Below, piece by piece: positions 30,848-51,220 of a stretch of 64,000 nt of DNA. Positions within the stretch are counted from its first letter, which is position 1. Each line of letters starts with the position of its first letter. Location of the stretch: NCBI GenBank assembly GCA_902786265.1, contig CADACE010000017.1, forward strand, positions 1 to 64,000, read 5' to 3'. Under the pieces are notes generated by a model. That model saw only the letters and a program-made list of their open reading frames with translations, ran no database searches and was not told the origin of the DNA. A program made the translations under genes and the position numbers. The DNA comes from an uncultured Chloroflexota bacterium. Lineage in GTDB: Bacteria; Chloroflexota; Anaerolineae; Anaerolineales; Anaerolineaceae.

Positions 30848-31151
30848 GATGTATGACGGGCATCCGGAGCGATTATGCGGATGTTCCCATTTTGCTGATT
30901 AATTCCGGTAAACGGTTTTACGGAACCTTTGACGTGATTCCGTTGCATTTTTGAAAAATGCGGATAGATTTCTGAATTATGTCAATGATCTCTCTTCCTG
31001 ACGACTGTCTATGACGGTTTGAACTCATAAGAATATCCCTTGATTCACGGATGGCGTTAAACCGTCGGAATATGTCACCATTCATACTGTTCAGATGAAA
31101 TAAAATAAGATATTTTTTTTTATTACAACCTGTGTGAAGGGAGATTTCTCT
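30848..31151. other. Upstream region of gene set A with an inverted repeat
   Basis: GACGGTTT (31013-31020) is mirrored by AAACCGTC (31059-31066), 38 bases apart. An A/T-rich stretch with a possible -10 (TAAAAT, near 31104) follows, and GAAGGGAG sits before the transporter start. The repeat may be a regulator site but differs from the AraC-type repeats at 41661. No gene is supported. Confidence 0.4.
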
Positions 31152-32330
31152 ATGGCTAAGGGCAGTAAAAATAATGCACCCGGCAGTCTTGCGGTTGCGT
31201 TAGGTGTAGGTTTTGTATGGTTTACCAGCCAGTTTGGCGGCGGTTTTGCTTCAGGAACTCAGCTTTATCAGTATTTCATCAATTTCGGCATCTGGTGTCT
31301 GGCTACTCCCGCGATCGCGCAGCTGTTCCAGGCGTTTTTTCAATGGTATGCCCTGCGGTTTGCTTACGAACATAAGACAGTAAACTACCGCGACTTTTGC
31401 GATCAGTTTTATGGAAAATTCCGGGTAGTTTTTTCAAATCTTTATGAAGTTGTCTACCTGATGCTCATTCTGCTTGCCCCGTCCATTGCCTTCGCGACCG
31501 GCGGCTCAACACTCAATGAACTGACAGGGATCCCCTATATCATCTGTACTGTGATCGTGGGGATCCTTATTTATATCGTGGCACTTTTCAATACCGATAT
31601 GATCCGCAAAGCGGCAACGATCGTTTCCTATGTGCTCATCATCGGTGTGCTGATCGTTTTTATTCCCAACATCATCGCCGAATGGGGCGACATTATGGAT
31701 GCCATCCACCAGATGTCTGCCGGTGCGCTTCCTGTAGGCGCCTCAGGCCCTGGCGGGTTTGGCCCCGCACTGTGGAATTGTATTCTTTACGGGGCTTACC
31801 ATGTCGCTTCCATTGGCCTTTACGTTGCTCACGCGCAGAAATTCACCGAAGAAAAACAATGCTTCACCAGTATGGCTTACGGGTTCATTATTAACGCTGT
31901 CGTGATCTCACTCGTCAACTTCGGCCTGCTGGCTGTCGCGATGAATCCGGAACTGCCGAACTACTCCGTTTATACGCTGTTGTTTGCGCAGCGCGGTGTG
32001 ATCCCGGGTGTTCTGGCTCCGATGGTTTCCATCCTGATCATTATCGGCTCTGTATTCTCCGGTGTCAACATGATCACCGGCTTTGTCAACCGCGTTGTTA
32101 CCGGCCTTGAGAAAAATGAATCCGAAGCGGACACACAAAAGAAACGCACTCTGCGCACCAGAATTACTGCTCTGGCATGCACACTGCTCACCTTCGGCAT
32201 CGCCCAGTTCGGGCTGCTGCCGCTGGTTCGGAAAGGTTACAGCTATCTCGGCTTCGCCTGCATCGTGGTCATCGTGATCCCGTTCCTGATCCGTATGGTC
32301 CTTGAACTGCTGGGCGTTGTGAAGAAATAA
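31152..32330 (+). CDS. YkvI-like membrane transporter (APC/LeuT superfamily)
   Basis: The 392-residue protein has about ten to eleven membrane helices. Its first helix carries FGGGFASGTQLYQYFINFG, close to the GAGFASGQE signature of the YkvI family, distant relatives of amino-acid and branched-chain transporters of the LeuT fold. The start at 31152 is preferred because GAAGGGAG precedes it. It opens gene set A, 29 bases before the ACP-hydrolase gene, so it probably imports the substrate of that hydrolase. The substrate is unknown. Confidence 0.78.
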   Translation: MAKGSKNNAPGSLAVALGVGFVWFTSQFGGGFASGTQLYQYFINFGIWCLATPAIAQLFQAFFQWYALRFAYEHKTVNYRDFCDQFYGKFRVVFSNLYEVVYLMLILLAPSIAFATGGSTLNELTGIPYIICTVIVGILIYIVALFNTDMIRKAATIVSYVLIIGVLIVFIPNIIAEWGDIMDAIHQMSAGALPVGASGPGGFGPALWNCILYGAYHVASIGLYVAHAQKFTEEKQCFTSMAYGFIINAVVISLVNFGLLAVAMNPELPNYSVYTLLFAQRGVIPGVLAPMVSILIIIGSVFSGVNMITGFVNRVVTGLEKNESEADTQKKRTLRTRITALACTLLTFGIAQFGLLPLVRKGYSYLGFACIVVIVIPFLIRMVLELLGVVKK

Positions 32331-32359: not shown

Positions 32360-34822
32360 ATGAGTATCAGACAGGAGATCTATGAAAAACTCGTTGAACG
32401 GGCTTCCCAGCTTTTCGGAAAGAGCCCGGCAGAGTTTTCCGAAGATACCCGCTTCGTGGAGGACTGCAACGCGAAATCGACACAGTACTCCCAGATCACC
32501 ACTTTTCTTGAGGATGAATTTGACACGGAAATCCCGTTCATGTCCTTCCGCCGCCAGGCTACCTTTGGGGAAGCTGTGGATTATGTGTTGACGGAATGCC
32601 TTGGTGAAGAGGCAGAAGCGGCAGCCCCAGCAGCCGCACCGGCACCGGCTCCCGCAGCCGCGCCTGCTTCCGGACGCCGCAAGGAGATTTTCGATAAACT
32701 CGTTGAACGCGCATCCCAGCTTTTCGGAAAAGCTCCGGAATCATTCTCTGAATCGACCCGCTTTGTTGAAGACTGCAATGCGAAATCCACACAGTATTCA
32801 CAGATCACAACCTTCCTTGAAGACGAATTTGATACCGAGATCCCGTTCATGTCCTTCCGCCGTCAGGCTACCTTTGGCGAGGCGGTGGATTATGTTCTGA
32901 CGGAATGTCTGGGTGAAGAAATTGAATCCGCAGCTTCTGCTGTACCTGCCGCAGCTGCGGCTCCGGCTCCTGTTCCGGCTGCTGCCCCGGCAGCTGCGGA
33001 AGAAGTTGAATCCTCCTCCGCAAAATCAGATCATGATGATGAACTGGCTCTCCGCGAACGCTTTACCCTGCGTGAAACCTTCCAGGGTGAAGAACTGGAT
33101 GCGATCTATATGGTAGCCCGCAAACCGGTCGCAGTTGACCCGAGCGTTGACCTCGCGAACTCTGATGACCCGATGGCCCGCATGGGACAGGGGTTCTGCC
33201 CGGCATTCAACCAGCGGGTTTATGAATGCGCTCCCGGCATCCTCTGCGAACAGGATGTGCCGGTGAAGATGCGCGACGGTGTTACCATCTACTGTGACAT
33301 TTACCGTCCAAAGGATGAAAGCCAGAAATATCCTGCCATTGTCTCCTGGTCCTGGTTCGGCAAACGCCCGGGTGAAGGTATGAGCGAATGGCAGATCATG
33401 GGCGTACCGCCCCATACCGTTTCCAAATTCGCGAAATTTGAATCCCCGGATCCGATGTACTGGTGCTACCAGGGCTACGCTGTCGCGAATGTTGATGTCC
33501 GCGGCGCCGGCCACTCCGAAGGCAACGTCCACATGTTCACTCATCAGGACCGCGAAGACGGTTATGACTTCGTGGAATGGCTGGGTGTGCAGCACTGGTG
33601 CAACGGCAACGTCGGTATGGCAGGAAACTCCGGTGTAGCGATGCACCAGTGGGGTATCGCTTCCATGCAGCCGCCGCACCTGAAGTGCATCGCCCCGTGG
33701 GAATGCACCACCGATCTTTACCGCGAATCCTTCTATGAAGGCGGCGTTCCGGCTCTTTCCTTCAACAAGTTCATTTCCGCCCAGGTTACCGGGACCGGCG
33801 GCGTTGACAGCCAGGTCGACATGGCTGTGAAATATCCGCTGATGAACGGTTATTGGGAAGACAAACGCCCCGATTTCTCCAAGGTCATCTGCCCGGTTTA
33901 CCAGACAGCCGGTTTCTCTCATTTCCATCTGCGCGGTTCTGTACAGGCCTTCCGCAAAGCCAAGACCAAGCTGAAGTGGCTGCGTGCCCACCGTGATTTC
34001 GAATGGCCGGATACCTATCAGCCGGAAAATCTGGAAGATCTGAAGCGCTTCTATGACCGCTATCTGAAGGATATCCACAATGGTTGGGAAATGACCCCGC
34101 GTGTCCGTCTTGACATTATGGATGCCTATGACTGCGATTATCAGGTTCGCCGTCCGGAAAATGAATTCCCGCTCAAACGCACGGAATACAAGAAGTTCTA
34201 TTTCGATGCTTCCGACCCGAACAACCTGACCATGCGCGATGAACCGGTCTCCGTGGAAAGCTCTGTGGCTTATGACGGGAACACCGGTCAGGTCGAATTC
34301 GATATGACCTTCAATGAAGATACCGAACTTACCGGTTACATGTACCTGCATCTGTTTGTTGCTCCGGAATCCTACAACGATATGGATATGTTCGTCAACA
34401 TCCAGAAGGCCGATGCGGACGGTAACTGGATCCCGTGGTATACCCTCGATGAACCGCATCCGGGTGCCTGGGGCAAGTGCCGTATTTCCCATCGTGAACT
34501 GGACCCGAAAGAATGCCAGACGATCAAGGACCTTATGGTGCAGCCGGTCATGGCACACCGCCGTGAACTCAAAGTCCAGCCGGGTGAGATCGTCCCGGTC
34601 GATATCGAGATCGTACCGAGTGCCCGTATCTGGCATAAGGGTGAAAAACTCCGTGTTCAGATCGCCGGCCGCTACATCCGTGAAGGCTGGTTCGAACCGC
34701 TTGCCTGGGATACCGACAACCATGGCCGCCAGATCATCTACACCGGCGGACAGTACCAGTCCTTCATCCAGGTACCGGTGATCCCTCCGAAGTACAAAGC
34801 CGGAGATTACGTTTACAGATAA
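32360..34822 (+). CDS. Tandem acyl carrier domains fused to a CocE/NonD-type serine hydrolase
   Basis: This 820-residue protein has two nearly identical ACP-like domains (about 6-84 and 108-187), joined by Ala/Pro-rich linkers (85-107, 188-225), then a CocE/NonD (X-Pro dipeptidyl-peptidase S15-like) hydrolase. The proposed phosphopantetheine serines are Ser40 and Ser143, each in NAKST where classical ACPs have DSL. The hydrolase has nucleophile Ser424 (AGNSGVA), a probable catalytic His in LRAHRDFEWP (His544), and the C-terminal jelly-roll ending in RVQIAGRYI and a late NHGRQIIYTGG. CocE enzymes cleave esters or amides through an acyl-serine. Fused carrier thiols suggest transfer of the acyl group to ACP rather than water. 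AAGGAGG precedes the ATG. Genes for AcpS, Pta and an acyl kinase follow. Confidence 0.85.
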   Translation: MSIRQEIYEKLVERASQLFGKSPAEFSEDTRFVEDCNAKSTQYSQITTFLEDEFDTEIPFMSFRRQATFGEAVDYVLTECLGEEAEAAAPAAAPAPAPAAAPASGRRKEIFDKLVERASQLFGKAPESFSESTRFVEDCNAKSTQYSQITTFLEDEFDTEIPFMSFRRQATFGEAVDYVLTECLGEEIESAASAVPAAAAAPAPVPAAAPAAAEEVESSSAKSDHDDELALRERFTLRETFQGEELDAIYMVARKPVAVDPSVDLANSDDPMARMGQGFCPAFNQRVYECAPGILCEQDVPVKMRDGVTIYCDIYRPKDESQKYPAIVSWSWFGKRPGEGMSEWQIMGVPPHTVSKFAKFESPDPMYWCYQGYAVANVDVRGAGHSEGNVHMFTHQDREDGYDFVEWLGVQHWCNGNVGMAGNSGVAMHQWGIASMQPPHLKCIAPWECTTDLYRESFYEGGVPALSFNKFISAQVTGTGGVDSQVDMAVKYPLMNGYWEDKRPDFSKVICPVYQTAGFSHFHLRGSVQAFRKAKTKLKWLRAHRDFEWPDTYQPENLEDLKRFYDRYLKDIHNGWEMTPRVRLDIMDAYDCDYQVRRPENEFPLKRTEYKKFYFDASDPNNLTMRDEPVSVESSVAYDGNTGQVEFDMTFNEDTELTGYMYLHLFVAPESYNDMDMFVNIQKADADGNWIPWYTLDEPHPGAWGKCRISHRELDPKECQTIKDLMVQPVMAHRRELKVQPGEIVPVDIEIVPSARIWHKGEKLRVQIAGRYIREGWFEPLAWDTDNHGRQIIYTGGQYQSFIQVPVIPPKYKAGDYVYR

Positions 34823-34889
34823 AAACCATCCATGCCGGAACAGCTTCCGCTGCTCCGGCATGTGTACCTGACAGGGAAGGAAGTCTCTC

Positions 34890-35264
34890 ATGATCATCGG
34901 GATCGGTACGGATCTGTTGAAAAAAGACGGTATTTCAGATGCTGTCTTACAGGCCGGTGATCCGTTTCGGGAAAAAACATTCACCCGGAAGGAACTGGAT
35001 CAGGCACAGGAAAGACCGGTCCCGGGAGATTACCTTCGCTGTCGTTTTGCAGCCAAGGAAGCTGTATTCAAATCCCTTGGGGCAGATCCGGAAAGCGCCC
35101 GGCTCAATGAGATCGAGATCCTCGATGATGAGAGAGGCGCTCCGCATGTAACACTTCACGGCGCACTCAAACAGCACGCCGTCATGAAAAAGATCCATGC
35201 CGTGCATGTCAGCATCAGCTATGATGGCGATTATGCACAGGCATTCGCCATTTCTGAGGGATAA
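34890..35264 (+). CDS. Holo-ACP synthase, phosphopantetheinyl transferase (set A)
   Basis: The 124-residue protein has the AcpS layout: GIGTDLL near the start (magnesium Asp), RCRFAAKEAVFKSLG in the middle, and the C-terminal VHVSISYDGDYAQAFA. It moves 4'-phosphopantetheine from CoA to the carrier-protein serine. Its place directly after the ACP-bearing hydrolase points to those domains as its substrate. A second, distinct copy lies at 52227. Neither sits with fatty-acid synthesis genes, so both look pathway-dedicated. Confidence 0.88.
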   Translation: MIIGIGTDLLKKDGISDAVLQAGDPFREKTFTRKELDQAQERPVPGDYLRCRFAAKEAVFKSLGADPESARLNEIEILDDERGAPHVTLHGALKQHAVMKKIHAVHVSISYDGDYAQAFAISEG

Positions 35265-35293: not shown

Positions 35294-36292
35294 ATGTCAC
35301 TTATTGAAACCCTGATCGAAAAAGCAAAACAATCTCCGAAACGTGTCGCGCTGCCCGAGTGCGAAGCTGACAAAACCCTGCTGGCTGCCCGCCGAGTCAA
35401 AGATGAAGGGATCGGTATCCCGGTCCTTGTGAACGATCCCGCGGTTATCCGGGAGACAGCTGCCCGTGTCGGTGTCAGCGTTGACGATATGGAAATCGTC
35501 GATATCGCTGATGAAGAATTCAAGGCTCAGGTCATTGCAAAATATATGGAATACCCGGCTGATAAACGCCAGCTTTCCGAAAAAGGTGCCCGCCGCAAGA
35601 TGGGCAATCCCATGTATTACGCGATGATCATGGAAGCTGCCGGTTTTGTTGACTGTACCTTCTGCGGTCACGTCAATACCACCGGAGACGTCCTGATGAC
35701 AGCCATGCAGGCGATCGGTATGCAGGATGGTGTGGATGTTCCTTCCATCTTCGCGCTCACTGAGATCCCGAATTTCAAGGGCTCTGAAGGAAATCTGCTC
35801 GCCCTTGCGGACTGCGGCCTGAACCCGGAACCGAAGGCTGATGACCTGGCATCCATCGCTATCGCCACCTGCGATAATGTCCATGCCCTGATGGGCTGGG
35901 AACCCCGCTGCGCTTTTCTGAGCTTTTCCACTCTTGGCAGCGGTACTGCCGAAAGTGTCGACAGGATCAACGAAGCGATTCGTATCGTCAAAGAACGCCG
36001 CCCGGACCTGAAGGTCGATGGTGAATTCCAGCTCGACACAGCTGTCGTTCCTGAAGTTGCGGCCAAAAAGGTGAAGAAAGAAAGTGAAGTCGCTGGAAAA
36101 GCCAATGTCCTGATTTTCCCGGATCTCAGCGCTGCCAATATCGGCATCAAGATGATCCAGATTTTTGCCGGCGGAAAAGGATACGGTCATACGCTTTCCG
36201 GCTTCAACAAACCGGTCGCTGACTCTTCCCGCGGCTCTTCTGTTGAAGAGATCGTCGGGGATATCGCGATGGTGATCATCGCTGCAAAATAG
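35294..36292 (+). CDS. Phosphate acyltransferase, Pta/Ptb family (set A)
   Basis: The 332-residue protein belongs to the phosphate acetyl/butyryltransferase family: LPECEADKTLLAARR, VDCTFCGHVNTTGDVL, FLSFSTLGSGTAESVDRINEA, DGEFQLDTAVVPEVAAKK, VAGKANVLIFPDLSAANIG and the final NKPVADSSRGSSVEEIVGD. Its full length and end are Pta-like. The family converts acyl-CoA and phosphate into acyl phosphate. Here the neighbours (ACPs, AcpS) raise the possibility that acyl-ACP is used, as PlsX does in lipid synthesis. The acyl chain is not identifiable. A paralogue is at 51221. Confidence 0.88.
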   Translation: MSLIETLIEKAKQSPKRVALPECEADKTLLAARRVKDEGIGIPVLVNDPAVIRETAARVGVSVDDMEIVDIADEEFKAQVIAKYMEYPADKRQLSEKGARRKMGNPMYYAMIMEAAGFVDCTFCGHVNTTGDVLMTAMQAIGMQDGVDVPSIFALTEIPNFKGSEGNLLALADCGLNPEPKADDLASIAIATCDNVHALMGWEPRCAFLSFSTLGSGTAESVDRINEAIRIVKERRPDLKVDGEFQLDTAVVPEVAAKKVKKESEVAGKANVLIFPDLSAANIGIKMIQIFAGGKGYGHTLSGFNKPVADSSRGSSVEEIVGDIAMVIIAAK

Positions 36293-36338: not shown

Positions 36339-37451
36339 ATGGGATATAAAATTTTTACTCTGAGCCCCGGTTCAACTTCGACAAAACTCGCTGTTTTTGA
36401 CGGCGAAGAAAGAATTTTCAAAGCCAATGTTCAGCATGACCCGGAAGTTTTGAAAACTTTTGCCCGTGTCAGTGAACAAAAGCCTTATCGTGTTCAGACC
36501 ATCCTTGACGAACTGGAAAAAGCCGGCATCAGCATCTCCGAAATGGATGCCTTCGCAGCTTACTCCGGCGGACTGGTCTCTACGCCCGGCGGTATTTTCC
36601 CGGTCAATGATAAGATCCTGGACGACTGCACTTCGGGCCGTCTGATGGAACATCCCGCTATTCTCGGTGCGCAGATCATCGACGCCTTTGCCAAAGAAGT
36701 CGGCAAACCCGCTTATTTGGTGAACCCTCCGGATGTGGATGAATTTGATGACGTTGCCAGAGTCACCGGGATCAAAGGCGTTTACCGTGAATCCCATGTC
36801 CATGTTCTGAACCAGAAGGAAGTTGCCATGCGGGCAGCCAAAGAACTGGGCAAGAAGTATGAAGAATGCAATTTCGTTGTCTGCCATGTGGGCGGCGGTA
36901 CATCTATTACAGCCCAGAAACAGGGACGGATCGTTGACGCCAATGACGTGCTGAATGGTGATGGTCCGATGGCTCCGAACCGATCCGGTTATGTCCCGCT
37001 TATGCCGGTCGTCAAGATGTGCTATTCCGGAAAATACAGTCTGGATGACATGAAGAAGAAAATTTCAAAGACCGGCGGTCTGCTGGGACTTCTCGGCACC
37101 GACAACATGCTGGAGATCGAGCAGAGGATCGCAGCCGGTGACAAATGGGCTGAACTGGTTTACAACAATTTTGCCTACCAGCTGGCGAAATACATCGGCT
37201 CTTACGCCTGTGTTCTCGAGGGTAAGGTGGATGCGGTCGTTATGACCGGCGGTGTTTCCAACGATGAAGACTTCATCGCAAATGTGAAGAAGTATGCCGG
37301 ATGGGTTGCTCCTTTCATTGTCTATGGCGGTGACTTTGAGATGGAAGCTCTGGCTTCCGGTGCCATCCGCGCACTGACCGGTGAAGAAGAAACCAAAGAA
37401 TACACCGGTGTTCCGGTCTGGACCGGTTTCGACTTTGAACCGAAGGAGTAA
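36339..37451 (+). CDS. buk: Butyrate kinase-family acyl kinase (set A)
   Basis: The 370-residue protein is a member of the acetate/butyrate kinase (ASKHA) family: SPGSTSTKLAVF (phosphate 1 loop), HPAILGAQIIDAFAKEVGKPAYLVNPPDVDEFDDVARVTG, VVCHVGGGTSITA, and DAVVMTGGVSNDEDF. It makes ATP and a free acid from acyl phosphate and ADP. It directly follows the phosphate acyltransferase, as in butyrate fermentation operons. Actual specificity could be butyrate, isobutyrate, propionate or another short acid. A paralogue lies at 47833. Confidence 0.92.
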   Translation: MGYKIFTLSPGSTSTKLAVFDGEERIFKANVQHDPEVLKTFARVSEQKPYRVQTILDELEKAGISISEMDAFAAYSGGLVSTPGGIFPVNDKILDDCTSGRLMEHPAILGAQIIDAFAKEVGKPAYLVNPPDVDEFDDVARVTGIKGVYRESHVHVLNQKEVAMRAAKELGKKYEECNFVVCHVGGGTSITAQKQGRIVDANDVLNGDGPMAPNRSGYVPLMPVVKMCYSGKYSLDDMKKKISKTGGLLGLLGTDNMLEIEQRIAAGDKWAELVYNNFAYQLAKYIGSYACVLEGKVDAVVMTGGVSNDEDFIANVKKYAGWVAPFIVYGGDFEMEALASGAIRALTGEEETKEYTGVPVWTGFDFEPKE

Positions 37452-37453: not shown

Positions 37454-38431
37454 ATGGCAAGACGGGAACGGCTGTGTCCTGAAATCACAGACCCTCAGCT
37501 CAGGGGCTTTTTGGACATGCTCCCGGATCTTCGTGCCTTTAACTCGGGGCTGGTCCTGTCGCAAAAGCGTTTTGCCGAAACGACTGAGTTTTCTTTACCC
37601 GGCCGTAAGATCTCTGTATGTTTTCACCGGGCGAAGGATGCGCAGGGAAATGATATCCCCGGTGCGCGTCCGGTGCTTTTTGAATATCATGGCGGCGGAT
37701 TTATGCTGGGCGATGCTGAAAAGACGGATGCCCTGTGTGAACGGATCGCAAGAGATTTAGGCATTCATGTCGTCGGTGTGAATTACCGCCTGGCTCCGGA
37801 AAATCCTTTTCCCGCGGCTGTAAAGGATGCCTATCAGGTGATTCGCCGCATGCGGCAGTATGCTTCGGAATACGGGATCGATCCGGACCGGATGGCTGTG
37901 ATGGGATACTCAGCCGGAGCCACACTCAGCACCGCGGCTGCCATGCAGGCCGTGCTGAACGGTGAATTTGCGCTGAAAGCCCAGGTGCTGCACTATCCGT
38001 ATCTGGATGCTGTTCATCTTCCGGATGAAAAAAAGCATTATGACTGCGATATGGCACCCGAAGTGATGAAAGCCTTCACACTGCTTTATTCCACGGAAGA
38101 AGAGCGGAAGAATTCCTATGTTTCTCCGGTCTGCGCGTCTGCCGATGAACTGCGGGGCTGCGCGCCGGCACTGATCCTGCCCGCGGAAAGGGATTCCCTG
38201 AAGGAGGAAGGACTGCTGTACGCACAGCATCTGCGGGATGCGGGCGTGGAAGTGAAGGTTCAGGTGATGGATGCCATGCACCACGGTTATGTGGAAGACG
38301 CTGCCAATGAAGAAGCATATGCTGCCACTCCCGCGGAAGTCCGGAAGACACATGATCCGTCTTTCCGGCAGCAGGCTGATCACGCGATCCAATTAACGGA
38401 GGAATTTCTGAAAGAGAAATTCGCATTGTGA
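37454..38431 (+). CDS. Alpha/beta hydrolase, HSL-like esterase (set A)
   Basis: The 325-residue protein has the HSL-family YHGGGFMLGD oxyanion motif, VNYRLAPENPFPAAVKDAY, nucleophile serine in MGYSAGATLS, Asp in PAERDSL and His in AMHHGYVED. It starts two bases after the kinase stop, with its AAGGAG overlapping that gene's end, so it is part of the operon. It may open ester substrates or recycle acyl-carrier esters or thioesters. Confidence 0.9.
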   Translation: MARRERLCPEITDPQLRGFLDMLPDLRAFNSGLVLSQKRFAETTEFSLPGRKISVCFHRAKDAQGNDIPGARPVLFEYHGGGFMLGDAEKTDALCERIARDLGIHVVGVNYRLAPENPFPAAVKDAYQVIRRMRQYASEYGIDPDRMAVMGYSAGATLSTAAAMQAVLNGEFALKAQVLHYPYLDAVHLPDEKKHYDCDMAPEVMKAFTLLYSTEEERKNSYVSPVCASADELRGCAPALILPAERDSLKEEGLLYAQHLRDAGVEVKVQVMDAMHHGYVEDAANEEAYAATPAEVRKTHDPSFRQQADHAIQLTEEFLKEKFAL

Positions 38432-38549: not shown

Positions 38550-39491
38550 ATGAAAATTTTAGGTATTTCTTCCGGAACCCTTAATGGTTCCAACGACTCC
38601 ATGTGCAAGGAAGGTTTGATGGGGGCACAGGAAGCCGGAGCTGAGATTGAATTCATCAATCTGCACAAACTGGATATCAAGCACTGCACCGGTTGTATCG
38701 CCTGCGTGAAATCCATCATGAGCGGCCGCGGCCGGACCTGCGCCCTCAAAGATGACTTCCTCTGGCTGCTGGATAAAATGCTGGATGCCGATGGTATTCT
38801 GATGGTCTCCCCGATTTTTGAAAACGGTGTTCCGGGTATCGTTCACACCGTTTGCGACCGCTTTGGCCCCTCCATGGACCGCGGCAATCTGGTGATCGCT
38901 GATATGCTCTCAAAGGAACACGGCGGTCCGGGTGTTGATCCGAGACTTCTGAAAGATAAGGTGATTTCCTTCATGGCCGTCGGCGGTTCTGACTGGGGTT
39001 CTCTGGTACAGATGGACCATGGCATGGTCGCGATGAGCCCGATGTGGAAGATCATTGACAATGACAAGTTCCAGTGGTCCAAGACCATCCTGATGGATGA
39101 CGCCGCTCTTGCCCGCGCGCATCAGATCGGTATCAACCTCGCGAACGCGGCGAAAGATATCGAACATGCCACATGGCAGGGTCCCGAAGGTGTCTGCCCG
39201 CACTGCCACACCAATAACTTCTACATCGAACCGGGTACCACCCACGCGATCTGCGGCCTTTGCGGTATGGAAGGCGAACTGGAAGTCAAAGATGGCGCGA
39301 TCCGCATCGTTTATGCTGAAGAAGAATACGCAAAAGCCCATGACACCATGTCCGGAAAGATGGCCCATGGTAAGGATATTCAGGTAAATGAAGGCCGATT
39401 GGCTGAGCTGCAGAAGAACAGCGAAGAATTCAAAGCCCGCAAGGCCAAGTATCGTGACTTCATTAAACCGTCTGTGCCGGAAAAAGCATAA
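38550..39491 (+). CDS. Flavodoxin-fold Fe-S flavoprotein with zinc-ribbon tail (set A)
   Basis: The 313-residue protein starts as an NADPH-dependent FMN reductase/iron-sulfur flavoprotein: MKILGISSGTLNGSNDSM binds FMN phosphate, and Cys46-x2-Cys49-x2-Cys52-x11-Cys64 can bind a 4Fe-4S cluster. A second part (about 214-240) has a rubredoxin-like or zinc-ribbon motif, CPHCH and CGLCG (Cys216, 219, 235, 238), and a C-terminal charged helix follows. It is a cytoplasmic electron carrier or small-molecule reductase. Its paralogue at 42412 has the same added ribbon. Both copies adjoin a 4-helix membrane protein gene. Confidence 0.82.
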   Translation: MKILGISSGTLNGSNDSMCKEGLMGAQEAGAEIEFINLHKLDIKHCTGCIACVKSIMSGRGRTCALKDDFLWLLDKMLDADGILMVSPIFENGVPGIVHTVCDRFGPSMDRGNLVIADMLSKEHGGPGVDPRLLKDKVISFMAVGGSDWGSLVQMDHGMVAMSPMWKIIDNDKFQWSKTILMDDAALARAHQIGINLANAAKDIEHATWQGPEGVCPHCHTNNFYIEPGTTHAICGLCGMEGELEVKDGAIRIVYAEEEYAKAHDTMSGKMAHGKDIQVNEGRLAELQKNSEEFKARKAKYRDFIKPSVPEKA

Positions 39492-39521: not shown

Positions 39522-39965
39522 ATGCAAAAACCGAGTGCAAAATGGATTATTATCTTTAATGTGGTTCTGTGTGTGCCGATGGCCATCATTATGTCGATTT
39601 CGGCGGCCCTTCTTGCCCACCAGCCACTTGTGTTTTCAAAGCTGCTGCCGAATATGCTGATAGCTTTCTGTCTGGCGGTCCTGATCAACATTATTCTGCC
39701 TATCCCGAAAATCCAGGACGGGTTCGCAAAGCTGTTCAAACTGGATCCACACAGCCTCCCCGGTGTTCTCGTCGGCAGTATCCCGGTATGTCTGATCTTC
39801 ACGGTCGGCGTTGGTCTGCCGCTGTCCTGGTGGAATGTAAGAATGGCTCCGGCTTTCTTATTCGCTTTCCTGGATACATTCATCCCGCTGTACATCATTC
39901 TCTATATTGTCGCTTTCATCATGACACCGATCGCCATGAAGGCTGCGAACAACGCCTGCAAATAA
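39522..39965 (+). CDS. Four-helix membrane protein, DUF2798-like tandem (set A)
   Basis: The 147-residue protein has four predicted membrane helices arranged as two similar hairpins (about 8-65 and 80-143). Each hairpin ends in a proline-containing helix and a basic tail, as in DUF2798. No catalytic motif is seen. It ends set A, 30 bases after the flavoprotein. A divergent relative sits beside the second flavoprotein (41836). The constant pairing suggests that it docks or serves the flavoprotein at the membrane. The DUF assignment is tentative. Confidence 0.6.
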   Translation: MQKPSAKWIIIFNVVLCVPMAIIMSISAALLAHQPLVFSKLLPNMLIAFCLAVLINIILPIPKIQDGFAKLFKLDPHSLPGVLVGSIPVCLIFTVGVGLPLSWWNVRMAPAFLFAFLDTFIPLYIILYIVAFIMTPIAMKAANNACK

Positions 39966-39986: not shown

Positions 39987-40019
39987 AAGGCCTCGCTCAA
40001 AAGGGCGAGGCCTTATTTT
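39987..40019 (+). terminator. Terminator ending gene set A
   Basis: AAGGCCTCGC (39987-39996) and GCGAGGCCTT (40005-40014) form a perfect 10-bp stem followed by ATTTTA. Confidence 0.88.
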
Positions 40020-40092: not shown

Positions 40093-40458
40093 TCAGAATA
40101 ACCCGTTGTCATGTTTCGGAACAATTCCGCCGACATCGTGTTCGACGCAGTCCCAGTGTTCACAAAGCTTTCCGTTTTCCAGCCGATACAGATCGAACAC
40201 CTTATTGATCATACCGTTTGCCAGTGTGCATTTAAAAAATACACAGACCAGATCACCTTCCTCCATAATGCTGCGGATCTCCATATGCGGTTTCATGGCC
40301 AGAAATTTTTCCGCGAACTTCAGAAATCCCTTTTTCCCGGTTTCCGTATTCGGATTGTGCTGGATATAATCATCGGCCATATAGGCATCGATGTTGGAGA
40401 CATCCCAGCCGTTGAAGACTTCTTCATAAAACTTCAGAACGATTTCTTTGTTAGTCAT
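40093..40458 (-). CDS. SnoaL-like/NTF2-fold protein
   Basis: The 121-residue protein fits the SnoaL-like polyketide cyclase or ester-cyclase branch of the NTF2 fold: FYEEVFNGWDVSNIDAYMADDYIQHNP, then a central beta sheet with GDLVCVFFKCTLANG and a final KLCEHWDCVEHD. Members include cyclases, dehydratases such as bile-acid BaiE, and ligand-binding proteins. Its start overlaps the AraC stop by four bases (ATGA), so the two are translationally coupled. It may process or sense the pathway's substrate. Confidence 0.82.
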   Translation of the reverse strand: MTNKEIVLKFYEEVFNGWDVSNIDAYMADDYIQHNPNTETGKKGFLKFAEKFLAMKPHMEIRSIMEEGDLVCVFFKCTLANGMINKVFDLYRLENGKLCEHWDCVEHDVGGIVPKHDNGLF

Positions 40459-41390
40459 ATTTCATCCTTTTCTGCAGCGCTTATCCCGGGCTGAATATTC
40501 TTCTGCTCTCTGCCGCGCGTATTTCTGTACTCTGTCGGAGACTGCCCGTAAGTCTTGCGAAAGATATCGCGGAAGTTCCCCTGGTTGTTATAACCGAGAA
40601 CATCGGCAATTTTTGATATCGGGTAATTGCTTCCCAGCAGCAGCCGGGCTGCTTCCTTCATTTTGGCATTCTGTATGATTTCCGTAAAGGAGAGCCCCAT
40701 ATACGTTTTGAGGATCCGCTGGACCTGACGTTCACTGTAATTAAAAAGATCTGCAAGCTCTTTGAGCGTGACAGTTGTGTAATGATCCTGGATGTATTTC
40801 ATGATGGCAAGCAGGTTCTCACTTTTCCGGATAGAAATGTTCCCGAAAACAACATCGCTGCCATGATTTCGCAGAAGCATAATAAAAAACTGGTCGACCA
40901 GACTGTTTACCATCCGGTTCCGGAATTCATCACATCTGAGACTTTCCAGATAAGCATTTTTCAGGACCTCCATCAGTGCCGGATCCCACTCACAGGGGAA
41001 GAAGAGAAATGGGTGCGGATTCAGTCCGTAAAGGATCCGGCTGAAAAAATCTGCAAGGATGCTTTCTTTGTCCTGCAAAACGCCCAAAAAAGCTTTTTCA
41101 AAAGTACTGCGCCGGATCAGAAGACAAAGCAGATTTCCTTCAGAAAAACAGCTGAGAGCGTGTCTGGCTTCAGGAGCGACAATGCAGATGTTTCCCTTGC
41201 GCATCGGGATCTTCTGGTCTGCCACAAATCCGGTAAATTCACCGTCAAGCATGATCTGGACAGAAAAGAAGTTGTTGGTATGCCATACCGGAGGGAAAAA
41301 AGCCGGCTGATGATGGAAATGGACATCAATATCTTTCTCCTGCAAGACCTCTTCTTCCAGATTTTCTTCCGTGATCTGAATCGAAAACAT
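40455..41390 (-). CDS. AraC family transcriptional regulator
   Basis: The 311-residue protein has an N-terminal cupin-like sensing domain (HFHHQPAFFPPVWHTNNFFSVQIMLDGEF, about 24-52) and a C-terminal double helix-turn-helix (about 205-297). The latter has LKELADLFNYSERQVQRILK and the recognition-type ISKIADVLGYNNQGNFRDIFRKTYGQSPTEYR. It lies between gene sets A and B, divergent from B. Repeats that look like its operator lie at 41661-41730. It is the only regulator gene within the 31-54 kb block and probably controls set B, perhaps both sets. Confidence 0.92.
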   Translation of the reverse strand: MFSIQITEENLEEEVLQEKDIDVHFHHQPAFFPPVWHTNNFFSVQIMLDGEFTGFVADQKIPMRKGNICIVAPEARHALSCFSEGNLLCLLIRRSTFEKAFLGVLQDKESILADFFSRILYGLNPHPFLFFPCEWDPALMEVLKNAYLESLRCDEFRNRMVNSLVDQFFIMLLRNHGSDVVFGNISIRKSENLLAIMKYIQDHYTTVTLKELADLFNYSERQVQRILKTYMGLSFTEIIQNAKMKEAARLLLGSNYPISKIADVLGYNNQGNFRDIFRKTYGQSPTEYRNTRGREQKNIQPGISAAEKDEI

Positions 41391-42411: not shown

Positions 42412-43359
42412 ATGACATATAAAGTAATGGGCATCACTGCCGGAAGAAAAAACAGCAACAGTGAAATTTTATTAAAGGAAGCATTAATGGCTTGTGAAGA
42501 AGCCGGTGCCCAGATCACCATGGTAAATCTTTCCGATTATACCATCCTTGACTGTACCGGATGCACTGCCTGCACGATGGCAATGTCACAAGGGAAAAAT
42601 GCCGGCTGTGTTCTCGATAAAAAGGATGACAAGAAACGCATCATGGACGTTATGCTGGATCAGGATGCAGTCATTTATTCTGCCCCGACCTATGACCTGC
42701 AGCCCTGTGCGCTGTTCACCCGTTTTTGCCAGCGCAGCCTTGCTTACGAGACCAGCTTCCTTGAAGCTATTGGCGCGATCGAACGCAGAGCCCGTCTTGC
42801 GGGGCTCATTGCCGTCGGAGGCTCCACACGTGCCTGGCAGTCTATGGCGCTTGAATCCATGCAGGCAGCCATGTTTACCACAGACATGAAAGTCGTCGAT
42901 ATGATCCTTGCCACCCGCGTTCCCGGAAACGGTCAGTGTGTTCTGAATGATGAACTGATCGCCCGCGCGCACAAGATGGGTGAAAACATCATGACCGCGA
43001 TCCAGACACCTGTTGAAGATCGCCATTGGCTGGGTGATGAAGACATGGGCTGGTGCCCGAACTGCCATTCCAATGCGCTCGTTCTCGGTGAACCGCAGTG
43101 GGACGGTGTTTCCTATGAAGTGGAATGCCAGGTATGCGGATGCGGCGGTACGCTGGAGAAGGTTGATGGCAAGTGGAAGTTCGTCATTGACCCGGTCAAC
43201 GGCCGTCTGAAGGATCGCACCACAGTCGAAGGCCGCCAGCTGCACCTGGATGAGATCGGTTATACCCAGGGAGCCATGTTCTACGCCAACCCCGAAAACA
43301 TGAAGCTTGCCCAGCAGAAAAAGCAGAAGTACATCGATAAGAAGTACCCTGCCGTGTAA
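42412..43359 (+). CDS. Flavodoxin-fold Fe-S flavoprotein with zinc-ribbon tail (set B)
   Basis: The 315-residue paralogue of the protein at 38550 begins MTYKVMGITAGRKNSNSE (FMN site). It carries Cys48-x2-Cys51-x2-Cys54-x11-Cys66 and a ribbon with CPNCH and CQVCGCGG (about 214-244). The same domain order and the same cysteine spacing show common descent; the sequences have otherwise diverged. It likely transfers electrons to or from the FAD enzyme encoded next. GGAGG precedes the ATG. Confidence 0.82.
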   Translation: MTYKVMGITAGRKNSNSEILLKEALMACEEAGAQITMVNLSDYTILDCTGCTACTMAMSQGKNAGCVLDKKDDKKRIMDVMLDQDAVIYSAPTYDLQPCALFTRFCQRSLAYETSFLEAIGAIERRARLAGLIAVGGSTRAWQSMALESMQAAMFTTDMKVVDMILATRVPGNGQCVLNDELIARAHKMGENIMTAIQTPVEDRHWLGDEDMGWCPNCHSNALVLGEPQWDGVSYEVECQVCGCGGTLEKVDGKWKFVIDPVNGRLKDRTTVEGRQLHLDEIGYTQGAMFYANPENMKLAQQKKQKYIDKKYPAV

Positions 43360-43460: not shown

Positions 43461-44954
43461 ATGAAGCAAATGGAAGCTGATGTCATCGTTGTAGCAGCCG
43501 GTCTTTCGGGCCTTGCTGCCAGCATTTCCGCGGCAGAAAACGGCGCGAAAGTGCTTACTTTTGAAAAATCCACAACTACCGGCGGCGCGGCCAATATGGG
43601 TATGGGTCCTCTGGGTGTAGGTTCCCGAATTCAGCGGGAACATATGGTTTCCCTCACCCCCGGTGAAGCCTTCCGCAAGCACATGTATTTCACACATTAC
43701 CGCGTGGATGCGCGGATGGTCCGTGACTATTATTTCAAATCCGGCGAAACCATTGACTGGCTGCAGGAAATGGGTGTTGAATTCGCCGGTGTACAGCGCG
43801 CCTTCTCCGCTCCGGAAGATACCCGCCCGTACTCCGATGGTGAATTCACATGGCACGTTGTCCAGCCGGAAGGCGGCGGCATCCCGGGACCGAGAGCGGC
43901 AACCGCGATGACCAAGAAGATGACCGAACGCGCAACTGACCTTGGTGTGGAATTCCTCTTCGAGACCCCGGTCCAGAAGCTTATCAAGGAAGACGGCAAG
44001 GTAGTCGGTGTTATCGCCAAAGATAAGAACGGCGAGGAAATCGAAGCCAGAGCCAAGGCTGTTATCGTCGCGACCGGCGGTTTTGGCGACAACCCCGTGA
44101 TGATCAAGGAACAGACCGGATATGAATTCGGCAAGACCATCTTCAACTTCGCTGTCCCGGGCATGAAGGGCGACGGGCTGAAGATGTGCTGGGAAGCCGG
44201 CGCCGGTAAAGAACCCTGCACCATGGAGCTGATGTACCAGCTGCCTGACAACATGAACCACTTCATCCTTGACGGTGCGTTCCGCCAGCCGTGTCTGTGG
44301 GTCAACCGCAACGGTGAACGCTTTATGCCGGAAGATCAGATCGGCAATACCACCTTCACAGGCAATGCCATCACCGCACAGCCGGGCATGGTCGCCTTCG
44401 CGATTTTCGACAGCAAACTGCTGAAGAAATACAAGAAGAACGGTCCGGATATTCCGAGCCATGTCCATCCGCATGACCTTTATGATCACTTCGATGAACA
44501 GTGGGAACGCGATCTTGCCGACGGCTATGAACCGTGCACCCAGGCTGATACCATTGAAGAACTTGCCGAAAAGGCCGGGATCGACGTTGACGGACTCGTC
44601 GCGCAGGTAGAAGAATACAACGAAATGTGCGATGGCGGATTTGACGAGATCTTCGAAAAAGACCGCCGCTATATGCAGCCGATCGCGAAAGCTCCGTTCT
44701 ACTGCCTGCGGCAGAACGTGGGTGCCTACGGTTCCCTGGGCGGTGTGAAGATCAACCACAAGACCCAGGTAATGACCCAGGAAGCGAAAGTTATCCCCGG
44801 GCTCTACTGCGTGGGTACCGATGCGTGCAACATCTTCGGTGACAGCTACCCGTTCATCCTTTCCGGCAACACCATGGGCTTCTGCCTGAACAGCGGACGA
44901 ATTGCCGGTGAAAACGCGGCTGCTGAAGCGCTCGGAGACGATTTCGATTTCTAA
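43461..44954 (+). CDS. FAD-dependent oxidoreductase, fumarate reductase flavoprotein-like
   Basis: The 497-residue protein has the FAD_binding_2 fold: a dinucleotide motif AAGLSGLAAS (12-21, with Ala where the first Gly is usual), TTTGGAANMG, a mid-chain ATGGFGDNP, and a C-terminal GLYCVGTDACNIFGDSYPF with SGNTMGFCLNSGRIAGENAA. It resembles fumarate, urocanate or 3-ketosteroid-type reductases that saturate an activated C=C bond. No Tat signal, haem or FMN-binding domain is present, so it is soluble and cytoplasmic. Electrons could come from the flavoprotein before it or the Fe-S flavoenzyme after it. The substrate is unknown. Confidence 0.86.
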   Translation: MKQMEADVIVVAAGLSGLAASISAAENGAKVLTFEKSTTTGGAANMGMGPLGVGSRIQREHMVSLTPGEAFRKHMYFTHYRVDARMVRDYYFKSGETIDWLQEMGVEFAGVQRAFSAPEDTRPYSDGEFTWHVVQPEGGGIPGPRAATAMTKKMTERATDLGVEFLFETPVQKLIKEDGKVVGVIAKDKNGEEIEARAKAVIVATGGFGDNPVMIKEQTGYEFGKTIFNFAVPGMKGDGLKMCWEAGAGKEPCTMELMYQLPDNMNHFILDGAFRQPCLWVNRNGERFMPEDQIGNTTFTGNAITAQPGMVAFAIFDSKLLKKYKKNGPDIPSHVHPHDLYDHFDEQWERDLADGYEPCTQADTIEELAEKAGIDVDGLVAQVEEYNEMCDGGFDEIFEKDRRYMQPIAKAPFYCLRQNVGAYGSLGGVKINHKTQVMTQEAKVIPGLYCVGTDACNIFGDSYPFILSGNTMGFCLNSGRIAGENAAAEALGDDFDF

Positions 44955-45076: not shown

Positions 45077-47167
45077 ATGAAGATTTTTATTGATGACCGG
45101 GAAATAGAGGCGAAAGAAGGACAATCCGTTCTTGACGCAGCTCTTGATGCCGGGATCTTCATTCCTCATCTTTGCAGCCATCCGGATCTTGAGGCGAAAG
45201 GCGGCTGCAGACTCTGTTCTATTGAAGTAGAGGGTGAAGATAAGGCGGTACCCGCATGTGAGACCATCGTGAAAGATGGTATGAAGGTCACCGTAAACGG
45301 ACCGAAGGCGGAAAAAGTCAGAAGGATGTCGATGGAACTGATCCTTGCCTCCCATCCCGCTGACTGCACCGGATGCCCGAAATACGGCAAATGCGAGCTG
45401 CAGAGTATGTACCAGTATATGGGCGTGAGTCCGGAAAGATGGCGCAAGAAGTCCCGACCGGTACCGAACAATGATTCCAATCCGCTCATTTCCCACCTGT
45501 TTACCCGCTGTATCCGCTGCGGACGCTGCATCAGAGCCTGTCAGGATCTCCGCGGCGTAAAGGTATTGGATTATATCAACACACCGCAGGGCATTAGAGC
45601 CGGGATCCCGGACGGCAAGTCTCTGGCGGAAGCCGGATGCCGTTTCTGCGGTGCGTGTATTGAAGTATGCCCCACCGGTTCCATCGTGGACCAGGTGAAA
45701 ATCATGAAGGATAACCGTTCCTACGCGGACAACATTGTGCCCTGCAGGGCAACTTGTCCCGCCCGTGTGGATATTCCGCGGTTTATCCGCTATATCAAAA
45801 ACGGCGATTTCGACAAGGCGACTGCGGTCATCAGGGAGAGAGTACCGTTCCCGGAAACACTCGGTAGTGTCTGTACCCATCCCTGCGAAACAGAATGTAA
45901 ACGCGGTGAAGTGAACGAACCGCTTTCAATCTGCCGCCTGAAGAGAGCTGCCGGTGTAAACGACAGCGGGGCCTGGAAGGCGAGAGTCCGGAAGGACGCT
46001 CCTACGGGCAAAAAGGCTGCTGTTATCGGTGCGGGTCCTGCCGGTCTTACTGCGGCATATTACCTTGCGAAGAAGGGCCATGAGGTGACAGTGTTCGAGA
46101 AGAACCCGAAAGCGGGCGGCCAGTGCCGTTATGGCATTCCGTACTATCGCCTTCCCGACGAACTGCTCGACAAGGAAATTGACGCGATGCTGGAATCCGG
46201 CTTTACCCTGAAGACCGATACCGAAGCTCCGGCTCCGGCTGACCTTCTTGCAAGCGGATTCGATACAGTGCTTGTCGCTGTTGGTACGCATCAGGGTACC
46301 AAGCTCCCGTTGGAAGGCGGTGATCTCCCCGGCGTTTATCTGAACGCGGAATTTCTGAAGAGATCCCGCATGGGCGATCCGATGCCCGTCGGTGAAAAGG
46401 TGATGATCCTCGGCGGCGGCAGTGTTGCTTATGACTGCGCGAGGACTGCTATCAGGCTCGGCGCGAAAGAAGTCCATGTAGCCTGTCTCGAAAGTCCCGA
46501 AAAGATGACTGCCTCAAAAGATGAGATCGAAGAAGGCGCCGAAGAAGGTGTGATCCTTCATGCCGCCCATTCGTTCCGCCGCATTACCGGTACCGACAAA
46601 GCCGAAGGTGTGGAACTTCAAAAGATCGAACGCTTCTATTTTGACGAAAATCACAGAGCCGTTATCGACCTGGTCGAAGGCAGCAATCAGATCATCCCTG
46701 TGGACAATGTTATTTTCGCGGTAGGGCAAAAACCGTTTGGGACGGATAAGATGGGGCTTGAACTTACCCATGGTCCGTACATTGCGGCGGATGAAAACCT
46801 GGCCACAAGTATGGCGGGTGTCTATGCTGCGGGCGATGTTGTGACCGGGACAAAGACGGTCATTGACGCGATCGCCGCAGGCCGCAAGGCTGCCGAACAA
46901 ATGGACCTCTTCATGGGAGGCGACGGCGACATCAGTGAAGAGCTTCTGGATAATGAAGTGCCGTCTCCGTTCATCGGACATATCGATGGCTTCGCAGCCC
47001 TCAAGCGCGGTGAACCGAAAGTCGCGGATGCGAAAGAACGTGCGCATAGCTTTAGCCTTGTGGAGCAGCCATTCTCCTGCGATCAGGCGAAATGTGAAGC
47101 GGAACGATGCCTGCAGTGCGACCTGAGACTGCAGCTGACCCGCCCGAAGCTTTGGAACGAATACTAA
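45077..47167 (+). CDS. Multi-cluster Fe-S NAD(P)H oxidoreductase (NuoG-like N-terminus, GltD-like C-terminus)
   Basis: The 696-residue protein strings together several redox modules. A 2Fe-2S ferredoxin has Cys33, 44, 47 and 61. A NuoG/HydA-type His-Cys3 site has His93, Cys97, 100 and 106. Two 4Fe-4S sites have Cys145/148/151/155 and Cys188/191/194/198. A GltD-type part has CRATCPARVDIPRF and CTHPCETECKRG. FAD and NAD(P)H sites are at GAGPAGLTAAYYLAKKG (318 on) and MILGGGSVAYDCARTA. The tail ends CLQCDLRL. It likely passes electrons between NAD(P)H and ferredoxin or the neighbouring flavoenzymes in the cytoplasm. The next gene encodes a NuoF-tail-like ferredoxin, probably its subunit. Confidence 0.86.
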   Translation: MKIFIDDREIEAKEGQSVLDAALDAGIFIPHLCSHPDLEAKGGCRLCSIEVEGEDKAVPACETIVKDGMKVTVNGPKAEKVRRMSMELILASHPADCTGCPKYGKCELQSMYQYMGVSPERWRKKSRPVPNNDSNPLISHLFTRCIRCGRCIRACQDLRGVKVLDYINTPQGIRAGIPDGKSLAEAGCRFCGACIEVCPTGSIVDQVKIMKDNRSYADNIVPCRATCPARVDIPRFIRYIKNGDFDKATAVIRERVPFPETLGSVCTHPCETECKRGEVNEPLSICRLKRAAGVNDSGAWKARVRKDAPTGKKAAVIGAGPAGLTAAYYLAKKGHEVTVFEKNPKAGGQCRYGIPYYRLPDELLDKEIDAMLESGFTLKTDTEAPAPADLLASGFDTVLVAVGTHQGTKLPLEGGDLPGVYLNAEFLKRSRMGDPMPVGEKVMILGGGSVAYDCARTAIRLGAKEVHVACLESPEKMTASKDEIEEGAEEGVILHAAHSFRRITGTDKAEGVELQKIERFYFDENHRAVIDLVEGSNQIIPVDNVIFAVGQKPFGTDKMGLELTHGPYIAADENLATSMAGVYAAGDVVTGTKTVIDAIAAGRKAAEQMDLFMGGDGDISEELLDNEVPSPFIGHIDGFAALKRGEPKVADAKERAHSFSLVEQPFSCDQAKCEAERCLQCDLRLQLTRPKLWNEY

Positions 47168-47178
47168 GGAGGTGCCGC

Positions 47179-47754
47179 ATGACGACTTTAGAACATGTTA
47201 AAGCCCTGAAGGACACAGAGTGCATTGTGGATGTCCTCCTGAATGAAGTAAAGAAGAACGAATGCAAGACCTGCGGGAAATGCACTTTCGGCTATGAGGG
47301 AATTAACCAGCTTGAAATGATCCTTTCCGATATCACGGAAAAGAAAGGCCGTCCCGGAGACATTGAACTTATGGATGACCTCTGCGGGGTGATGAAGGAA
47401 CAGTCCCTCTGTGAGACCGGTGAAGAAATCGCAGCCGCGGTTCTGGAAGCTATTTCGGCTTACAGAAAGGACTTTGAAGACCACATCAGCAAGAGAGGCT
47501 GCCGCGCGGGTGTCTGCAAAAAGTACATGACCTACCATGTGCTTGCGGCGAAGTGTATCGGCTGCGGTGACTGCATGGATGTCTGTGAGGATGACGCGAT
47601 CCTCGGCAAGAAGAAGTTTGTGCATGTGATCGTACAGGATGAATGTACTCAGTGCGGCAAATGTCTTGAGGCTTGTGACGAAGAAGCGATCGTGACCGCG
47701 GGTGCTATCAAACCGCGCTGCCCGGCAAAGCCGATTCCCTGCAAGGCAAAATAG
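47179..47754 (+). CDS. NuoF C-terminal-like ferredoxin subunit
   Basis: The 191-residue protein corresponds to only the end of NuoF/HydB-type NADH dehydrogenase subunits. A 4Fe-4S site is formed by Cys29/32/35 (CKTCGKC) and Cys78 (SLCETG). The linker CRAGVCKKYMTYHVLAAKC follows, then two ferredoxin clusters (Cys126/129/132/136 and Cys156/159/162/166). The NADH- and FMN-binding parts of NuoF are absent. AAGGAGG, 12 bases after the previous stop, sets the start at 47179. Together with the 696-residue protein it rebuilds a NuoG/NuoF-like wire around a GltD-like flavin core. Confidence 0.82.
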   Translation: MTTLEHVKALKDTECIVDVLLNEVKKNECKTCGKCTFGYEGINQLEMILSDITEKKGRPGDIELMDDLCGVMKEQSLCETGEEIAAAVLEAISAYRKDFEDHISKRGCRAGVCKKYMTYHVLAAKCIGCGDCMDVCEDDAILGKKKFVHVIVQDECTQCGKCLEACDEEAIVTAGAIKPRCPAKPIPCKAK

Positions 47755-47832
47755 GCAAAAAGCAAAAACACAGGACGGTGATGGAAGCGGAGACCAGCTT
47801 TCATCACCGCCATGAAAGGATCAATTACAGAA

Positions 47833-48942: not shown

Positions 48943-48966
48943 CTTTCAATAATTGGGAAAGAAAGG

Positions 48967-50331: not shown

Positions 50332-50350
50332 GAACGGAGGATCAGCGAAG

Positions 50351-50770
50351 ATGGCTATCAAATTGGAAAAAGTGGTTGAACACTACTACGAAGCGCTTGA
50401 AGAGGGCAAGATCCTCGGACGCAAGTGCCCGGTCTGCGGGAATGTTGAATTTCCTCCGGTTTATGCCTGCAACAAATGCGGAAACTATGAAACCGAATGG
50501 TATGAGATTAGCGGCAAAGCCAGGATCCATTCCATCGTAATGCCTGCTGCGCTTTCTTCCAAACCGGAATATAAAAATCTCGGCAAATATGCCTACTGCG
50601 AAATAGAGCTTGAGGAAGGCACGCACCTGAACGCCGTTGTCCGCGGCATCAACAAGAAGAAGCGCCAGGAACTGATGGATAAACTTCCGGAAGTCTACTG
50701 CCACGCTGCGATCTTCGAACGCGAACAGGGATTCAAGACTGTCGTCTTTGATCTGGATGAAGGTCAGTGA
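50351..50770 (+). CDS. DUF35 OB-fold zinc-ribbon thiolase partner
   Basis: The 139-residue protein has a rubredoxin-like zinc ribbon, KCPVCGNVEFPP and CNKCGNYE (two C-x2-C knuckles, about 25-45), then an OB-fold (about 46-135), as in DUF35/ChsH2/PhlB-type proteins. These bind SCP2-like thiolases and channel acyl groups. GGAGG sets the start at 50351, 19 bases after the thiolase stop. In archaea a DUF35 protein bridges thiolase and HMG-CoA synthase. Confidence 0.88.
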   Translation: MAIKLEKVVEHYYEALEEGKILGRKCPVCGNVEFPPVYACNKCGNYETEWYEISGKARIHSIVMPAALSSKPEYKNLGKYAYCEIELEEGTHLNAVVRGINKKKRQELMDKLPEVYCHAAIFEREQGFKTVVFDLDEGQ

Positions 50771-50825
50771 TCCGTTCCCCTAACGGAGCTGAAAGCGCTT
50801 TGCGCCTGAGACAGAAGTAAAAACA

Positions 50826-50853: not shown

Positions 50854-50876
50854 AGAAAAAAAGGAGATTTGTGATT

Positions 50877-51110: not shown

Positions 51111-51146
51111 TCCTTTCCGGATAAACTCCATTTGCTGAACGAAAGA

Positions 51147-51192: not shown

Positions 51193-51220
51193 GATTTCAT
51201 ATATTGGAAAAGGGAAACCC

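Follow-up and report, generated by a model that had tools for sequence, protein, structure and literature searches.

The hydrolase gene and its operon

The window analysed here (the whole stretch of DNA, 64,000 nucleotides in length) carries at 32360–34822 on the plus strand a single uninterrupted open reading frame of 820 amino acids, in which two acyl carrier protein (ACP) domains and a CocE/NonD hydrolase are joined by Ala/Pro linkers. The gene is present as a single copy in its genome. The first ACP domain (32360–32605, +) has its predicted 4'-phosphopantetheine site at Ser40 (codon 32477–32479, motif DCNAKST), and the second (32678–32914, +), an internal duplicate of the first, at Ser143 (codon 32786–32788). 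The domains span residues about 5–77 and 108–180, and the two copies are 91% identical as protein and 80% identical as DNA. In NCBIfam, the two stretches matched the PRK00982 subfamily of acyl carrier proteins (E 9e-21) and TIGR00517 (E 1.5e-15), and the PP-binding match in Pfam was below the threshold. In the AlphaFold2 model each serine sits where helix II of an ACP four-helix fold begins, and a model of the ACP alone reached a pLDDT of 93 and TM values of 0.7–0.8 to solved ACPs. Moreover, the attachment serine (the Ser40 position) is invariant in all 26 ACPs aligned, and the Asp that usually precedes it is in every case replaced by Lys, or by Arg in two. An Asp before the Ser (the DSL motif) is common in ACPs and does not define them; Lys or Arg in its place appears from the alignment to be a trait of this subfamily, with fold and serine kept. 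The linkers at residues 87–101 and 190–225 are disordered in the model (pLDDT <50).

The catalytic part (33239–34783, +; residues 294–808) comprises a CocE/NonD alpha/beta hydrolase and a PepX_C domain, according to both profile and structure matches. It matched TIGR00976 with E 7e-64 (216.7 bits, family cut-off 66.3; NCBIfam), Peptidase_S15 at residues 306–478 (E 4e-37) and PepX_C at residues 574–803 (E 3e-29; both Pfam). The nearest solved relative is the Staphylococcus aureus CocE/NonD protein SACOL2612 (3ib3/3iii; E 3e-93), and the structure match of the catalytic part to 3iii gave Z 38.6 over 506 residues. This protein and the Rhodococcus cocaine esterase (1ju3) share with ours the catalytic and PepX_C domains and the positions of the Ser and His; ours differs from CocE/NonD hydrolases in its fused or paired ACPs, in its operon with AcpS, Pta and Buk, and in the replacement of the classic Asp, which is also seen in 3ib3. 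The nucleophile Ser424 and His544 are invariant among the relatives aligned. The preliminary description had claimed two near-identical ACP-like domains and an ACP-ACP-CocE chain with Ser40, Ser143 and an intact Ser424; the reading frame, the NCBIfam and Pfam matches and the AlphaFold2 models bear this out, with the domains being true ACPs. The Asp position of the CocE triad holds a polar residue, so that even the acyl-Ser424 chemistry is a prediction. In a further comparison, the model matched the fold of 2,6-dihydroxypseudooxynicotine hydrolase (2jbw) with Z 20.6, which we take to be an alpha/beta hydrolase cutting an acyl-hydroxyarene C-C bond. By analogy this match shows that C-C acyl-arene cleavage would be within reach of the CocE fold, although 2jbw is a plain hydrolase without ACP. 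The PF18089 domain of phloretin hydrolases (DAPG_hydrolase) is absent from the 820-residue protein in the Pfam search.

The operon opens with a conserved membrane protein, probably a transporter (31134–32330, +), which matched no Pfam family above the cut-off; ORF clustering found it ahead of the hydrolase gene in 13 loci, window included, and it is 74–95% identical in relatives. Behind the hydrolase follow AcpS, a holo-ACP synthase (phosphopantetheinyl transferase) recognised by Pfam ACPS (E 9e-12) and by NCBIfam (34890–35264, +), the phosphate acyltransferase Pta1 (35294–36292, +; PTA_PTB E 8e-87) and the butyrate-kinase-family acyl kinase Buk1 (36339–37451, +; TIGR02707 E 3e-123, above cut-off), just as had been proposed for the genes directly downstream. 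The next genes encode an Abhydrolase_3 (HSL-family) esterase (37454–38431, +; E 1e-57), co-conserved in 20 of the 32 hydrolase loci counted below, a reductase of the flavone reductase (FLR) type (38550–39491, +) and a small membrane protein (39522–39965, +), after which a terminator-like hairpin lies at 39987–40014. A gene for an AraC-type regulator, judged as such from its sequence, lies near the operon on the opposite strand (40455–41390, −); it is 46–63% identical in relatives and belongs to a family found by ORF clustering in 9 loci (family 10). A further hairpin of 14 pairs is located between the hydrolase and AcpS genes (34831–34862), with a T-run on the minus strand only, and is possibly an element of mRNA processing or attenuation, or a stop for minus-strand transcription.

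The closest relative of the hydrolase (96% identity) is found in a MAG labelled Anaerolineaceae (locus L015), and the MAG of the window (contig G000:C17) was grouped by kinship in one genus with it. Most other close copies of the operon belong to MAGs of Lachnospiraceae and other Clostridia. The host assignment of the window contig is doubtful, and either transfer or mis-binning may lie behind this distribution. DegV was set aside as a taxonomic marker, its matches in relatives being only about 30% identical.

Conservation of the kit and of its phosphate acyltransferase

Scanning a single genome from each species, we obtained 67 loci, of which 42 contain the hydrolase relative itself and most others ACP matches only. 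The following counts refer to the 32 hydrolase loci whose flanks exceed 1 kb on the upstream side and 4 kb on the downstream side. An ACP is fused to the hydrolase or encoded just upstream in 30 of them (fused twice in 10, fused once in 6, as a separate gene in 14) and is missing in two (L043 and L052), while Pta together with Buk is present in 28 and AcpS in 20. That the same partnership is seen both as a fusion and as adjacent genes argues strongly for joint action of ACP and hydrolase. The kit occurs in Bacillota, Actinomycetota and MAGs filed as Chloroflexota, with Lachnospiraceae, Oscillospiraceae, Bacilli, Atopobiaceae and one unclassified Actinomycetota among its carriers, so that the suggested search for AcpS, Pta and Buk travelling with the hydrolase found them together across phyla. 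The two-ACP chain is neither unique nor essential to the idea, because loci with one ACP, or with the ACP on a gene of its own, are equally common. Homologues without acyl-phosphate genes, which the preliminary description had named as speaking against it, exist only at the edge of the distribution: the two loci without ACP, a locus with ACP and no Pta or Buk within its 10 kb flanks (L049), and a frameshifted one (L042); 28 of the 32 loci keep Pta and Buk. In the frameshifted locus (L042:10055–11854, Flavonifractor An112) both the ACP and the hydrolase appear to be broken and no Pta or Buk is nearby, which suggests joint decay of the module or else a sequencing error. Such hydrolases without ACP, Pta and Buk (L043, L052, L149–L151) were seen in aerobic Proteobacteria and in one MAG each of Coriobacteriaceae and Freyarchaeota, some of them close to aromatic-catabolism genes. 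On plasmids of aerobes the neighbours of hydrolase-only homologues vary, with some aromatic-catabolism genes as the limit of the clue to the substrate.

We further focused on the residues of Pta that contact CoA, using the Methanosarcina thermophila enzyme as reference for numbering and alignment. Arg87 and Arg133 are CoA-site residues of Pta, and mutating their equivalents in a CoA-using Pta has moderate effects only (PMC6461089). Arg133 is lost in all 38 Ptas of the module, being replaced by Met (as in Pta1), Leu, Ile, Trp, Val or Phe. The catalytic Ser309 is kept in all 37 that are long enough, and Arg310 in 36 of these 37, with one Lys; both are kept in Pta1, and the L025 Pta ends before these positions. 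Arg87 and Arg287 are lost in most as well. Our argument rests on Arg133, because Arg87 falls in a gappy part of the alignment and its placement is ambiguous for the Pta of a second kit (Pta2: E in one alignment, R in another). Among the controls, Arg87 and Arg133 are both kept in a CoA-type Pta encoded by a neighbouring gene in L013 and in the solved enzymes 1qzt, 8fir, 6iow and 7t88, and the solved 1vmi keeps Arg133 only. The baseline across the order consists of malic-enzyme fusions, used here only as a control for CoA-site residues, and both arginines are kept in 30 of 30 such Pta domains (L092–L121). These domains are without the catalytic Ser-Arg pair, a mirror image of the module Ptas. 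Five Ptb-like controls have Lys, Lys, Met (L146), Arg and Arg at position 133. In the tree, the Ptas of the module, second kit included, form one clade with 99/93 support. The loss of Arg133, the retention of Ser309 and Arg310 and the single clade together indicate that the acyl donor of these enzymes is probably acyl-ACP and not acyl-CoA. The simplest reading of the residue pattern would be that they have lost their hold on CoA and accept the acyl group borne by the phosphopantetheine of an ACP. The earlier claim that AcpS, Pta and kinase are the set required for turning an ACP thioester into ATP stands as to its genes, which are real, and the residue pattern fits an acyl-ACP donor, a preference that we infer. 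No other PF01515 (Pta) gene was found in the genome of the window (89% completeness), so a role of Pta1 and Pta2 in acetate metabolism at large is conceivable as well.

A second kit and the flavone reductase neighbour

Downstream in the window, a second ACP, Pta, Buk and AcpS kit (47812–52640) is paired with a thiolase and a Zn-ribbon protein. It contains the acyl kinase Buk2 (47812–48942, +; 90% identical in genome G007), a thiolase-like enzyme (48967–50331, +; Thiolase_C_1 E 1e-23) related to benzoylsuccinyl-CoA thiolase and PhlC, its DUF35/ChsH2-type Zn-ribbon partner (50351–50770, +; zf-ChsH2 E 1e-7), a stand-alone ACP (50877–51110, +; PP-binding E 2e-7), Pta2 (51221–52225, +), an ACP-type enzyme of the same clade with Leu at Arg133, and AcpS2 (52227–52640, +; ACPS E 6e-14), and ends with an MFS transporter (52718–53959, +; MFS_1 E 1e-38). 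Thiolase and Zn-ribbon are alike in PhlACB and in pairs of SCP2-thiolase and ChsH2-type proteins, to which this kit adds an ACP, an ACP-type Pta, Buk and AcpS. In G007 (L127) the kit has the same gene order and lies on the hydrolase contig; a similar thiolase set, with AcpS not detected, is found in G106 (L124), which belongs to another family of the order; and in L029 the thiolase and Zn-ribbon genes are divergent from the ACP-hydrolase operon. In L124 the module-type Pta clade and a stand-alone ACP accompany the thiolase, and the CocE hydrolase was not detected. Two different acyl loaders on one ACP, Pta and Buk kit are what an ACP-based energy-saving step predicts. The preliminary description mentions neither this thiolase-based kit nor the link to flavone reductase described below. 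Between the two kits lie genes for a FAD-dependent reductase of the fumarate-reductase/vinylphenol-reductase type (43461–44954, +; Pfam, NCBIfam), an FeS/FAD electron-transfer protein (45077–47167, +; 2Fe-2S, 4Fe-4S and Pyr_redox_2 domains) and an FeS electron-transfer protein (47107–47754, +; NADH_4Fe-4S and Fer4 domains).

The FLR-type protein of the operon, an FMN protein, is 59% identical to FLR, the crystallised flavone reductase from Flavonifractor plautii (PDB 7D38; E 5e-125). FLR targets the C ring of flavones, and its activity fell most when G106, W149, H271 or I275 was mutated (PMC7862272). These four residues are kept in all complete close FLRs, which are 57–70% identical to FLR, and the protein of the window keeps D103 as well. 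The relatives adjoining the hydrolase in Konateibacter (L047) and in L032 are 68–70% identical to FLR, and a relative of at least 50% identity is present in only 12 of the 32 loci. A second FLR-family reductase in the window (42412–43359, +) is 30% identical to FLR and does not retain the mutation-sensitive residue set. The FLR neighbour points to flavonoid catabolism for the operon, with flavone reduction as the predicted reaction. Moreover, genes for a CoA-transferase III, a 2-hydroxyacyl-CoA dehydratase with its activator, an acyl-CoA dehydrogenase and ETF lie upstream in L047 and L057 and partly in L032, a set that resembles the fld/acd pathway for aryllactates and arylpropionates. They fit arylpropionate or aryllactate products; alpha-hydroxy-dihydrochalcones from flavonols would give aryllactates. 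Because of the FLR link and these upstream genes, our best guess for the acyl donor, and a tentative one, is a dihydrochalcone (phloretin, for example, or an alpha-hydroxy-dihydrochalcone).

In Clostridium butyricum FLR, Fcr and phloretin hydrolase are encoded side by side (PMC11868195). The gut pathway of FLR, CHI/EnoR or Fcr, and phloretin hydrolase (PMC7862272, PMC11868195) shares with our operon an FLR-type enzyme with the same active-site residues, but phloretin hydrolase (Phy) releases the acid to water, and no ACP, Pta or Buk has been described there. Genes of the phloretin hydrolase family PF18089 occur in 9 of 35 carrier genomes. Across the order the count is 4 of 301, but this baseline is a different set of taxa and we claim no enrichment; in the genome of the window none was found. 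The CocE protein as a universal replacement for phloretin hydrolase is rejected on the basis of these 9 carrier genomes, and the substrate may therefore differ.

A proposed carrier-protein route to ATP

We propose, with a probability of about 0.6, that the hydrolase loads acyl groups onto its own carrier arms, within an operon that breaks down polyphenols (probably flavonoids) anaerobically and yields ATP via Pta and Buk. First, AcpS would arm Ser40 and Ser143 with phosphopantetheine. Second, the CocE domain would attack an acyl-arene ketone or an activated ester of a flavonoid breakdown product, by which Ser424 would be acylated, with an arylpropionyl group from a dihydrochalcone as the best candidate, and the acyl group would then pass to the neighbouring ACP thiol and not to water. 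Third, the ACP-type Pta would phosphorolyse acyl-S-ACP to acyl phosphate, from which Buk would form ATP and a free aryl(lactic/propionic) acid. We consider it rather probable that a circuit from ACP via acyl phosphate to ATP operates. The wider idea of an ACP-dependent substrate-level phosphorylation general to anaerobic polyphenol catabolism, in which holo-ACPs replace CoA, either an ACP-fused serine acyltransferase or a thiolase/ChsH2-type pair serves as loader, and the ACP-specific Pta clade makes ATP together with Buk, has in our opinion an even chance. The last two steps belong to the same enzyme families as Pta-Buk and Pta-AckA substrate-level phosphorylation, with ATP and acid as the probable output; the difference is a donor that is probably acyl-ACP, the lost Arg133 and the separate Pta clade.

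The main rival is the reverse direction, in which Buk would activate an acid with ATP, Pta would load the ACP and the CocE domain would pass the acyl group to an alcohol or amine, giving esters or amides (for example in phenolic conjugation). The steps of the circuit can run both ways, and acyltransferase activity is within the repertoire of alpha/beta hydrolases. The reverse direction would also mirror the FakAB-PlsX route, in which fatty acid and ATP give acyl phosphate and then acyl-ACP (PMC10146087, PMC12594616). That system (acyl-ACP:phosphate transacylase and fatty acid kinase) is alike in its ACP, acyl phosphate and kinase chemistry, but it consists of other protein families, serves lipid synthesis and runs opposite to the direction proposed here. 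We consider the reversal unlikely, since the surroundings look catabolic, with reductases of the FLR and fumarate-reductase types, proteins of electron transfer, MFS transporters and a PucR-type regulator; the dehydratase, acyl-CoA dehydrogenase and ETF genes likewise look catabolic, and in the second kit a carbon-carbon enzyme pair takes the place of the hydrolase.

The same circuit could instead draw on an ordinary activated ester, such as an acylated or galloylated polyphenol or a hydroxycinnamate ester, and not on a C-C acyl arene. CocE/NonD enzymes are known as esterases and the operon encodes a second, HSL-family esterase, but going from a simple ester to a thioester is uphill, so little energy would be saved; moreover, the parallel kit uses a thiolase, FLR has the C ring of flavones and not an ester as its target, and an ester donor seems improbable to us. 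It is more improbable still that the role of the ACPs is limited to tethering a substrate or bringing it to a plain hydrolase, in the manner of an acyl-ACP thioesterase, with Pta and Buk using acyl-CoA independently: CocE homologues without ACP do exist and Arg87 and Arg133 are not strictly essential for CoA use by Pta (PMC6461089), but Arg133 is absent from every module Pta and kept in the CoA-type and malic-enzyme controls, and the same Pta clade accompanies a thiolase and a stand-alone ACP at L124. Chance or mis-assembly is rejected, because independent MAGs show the architecture again and isolates show the pairing of ACP with hydrolase.

An ACP-tethered hydrolase with a presumed carrier-protein route to ATP appears to be undescribed; in the open literature, with most subscription papers outside the scope of the search, nothing relevant was found on CocE with ACP and butyrate kinase or on ACP-based substrate-level phosphorylation. 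If the proposed circuit is true, an ACP would hold a catabolic, CoA-like job, a Pta without Arg133 beside an ACP would be a search signature for such pathways, and the energetics of anaerobic polyphenol degradation would be directly testable with four proteins. Flavonoid cleavage in the gut has been described as hydrolysis to water by phloretin hydrolase, with the bond energy wasted. The proposed circuit would mean that some gut and rumen anaerobes gain ATP from flavonoid cleavage, which would explain why they do it.
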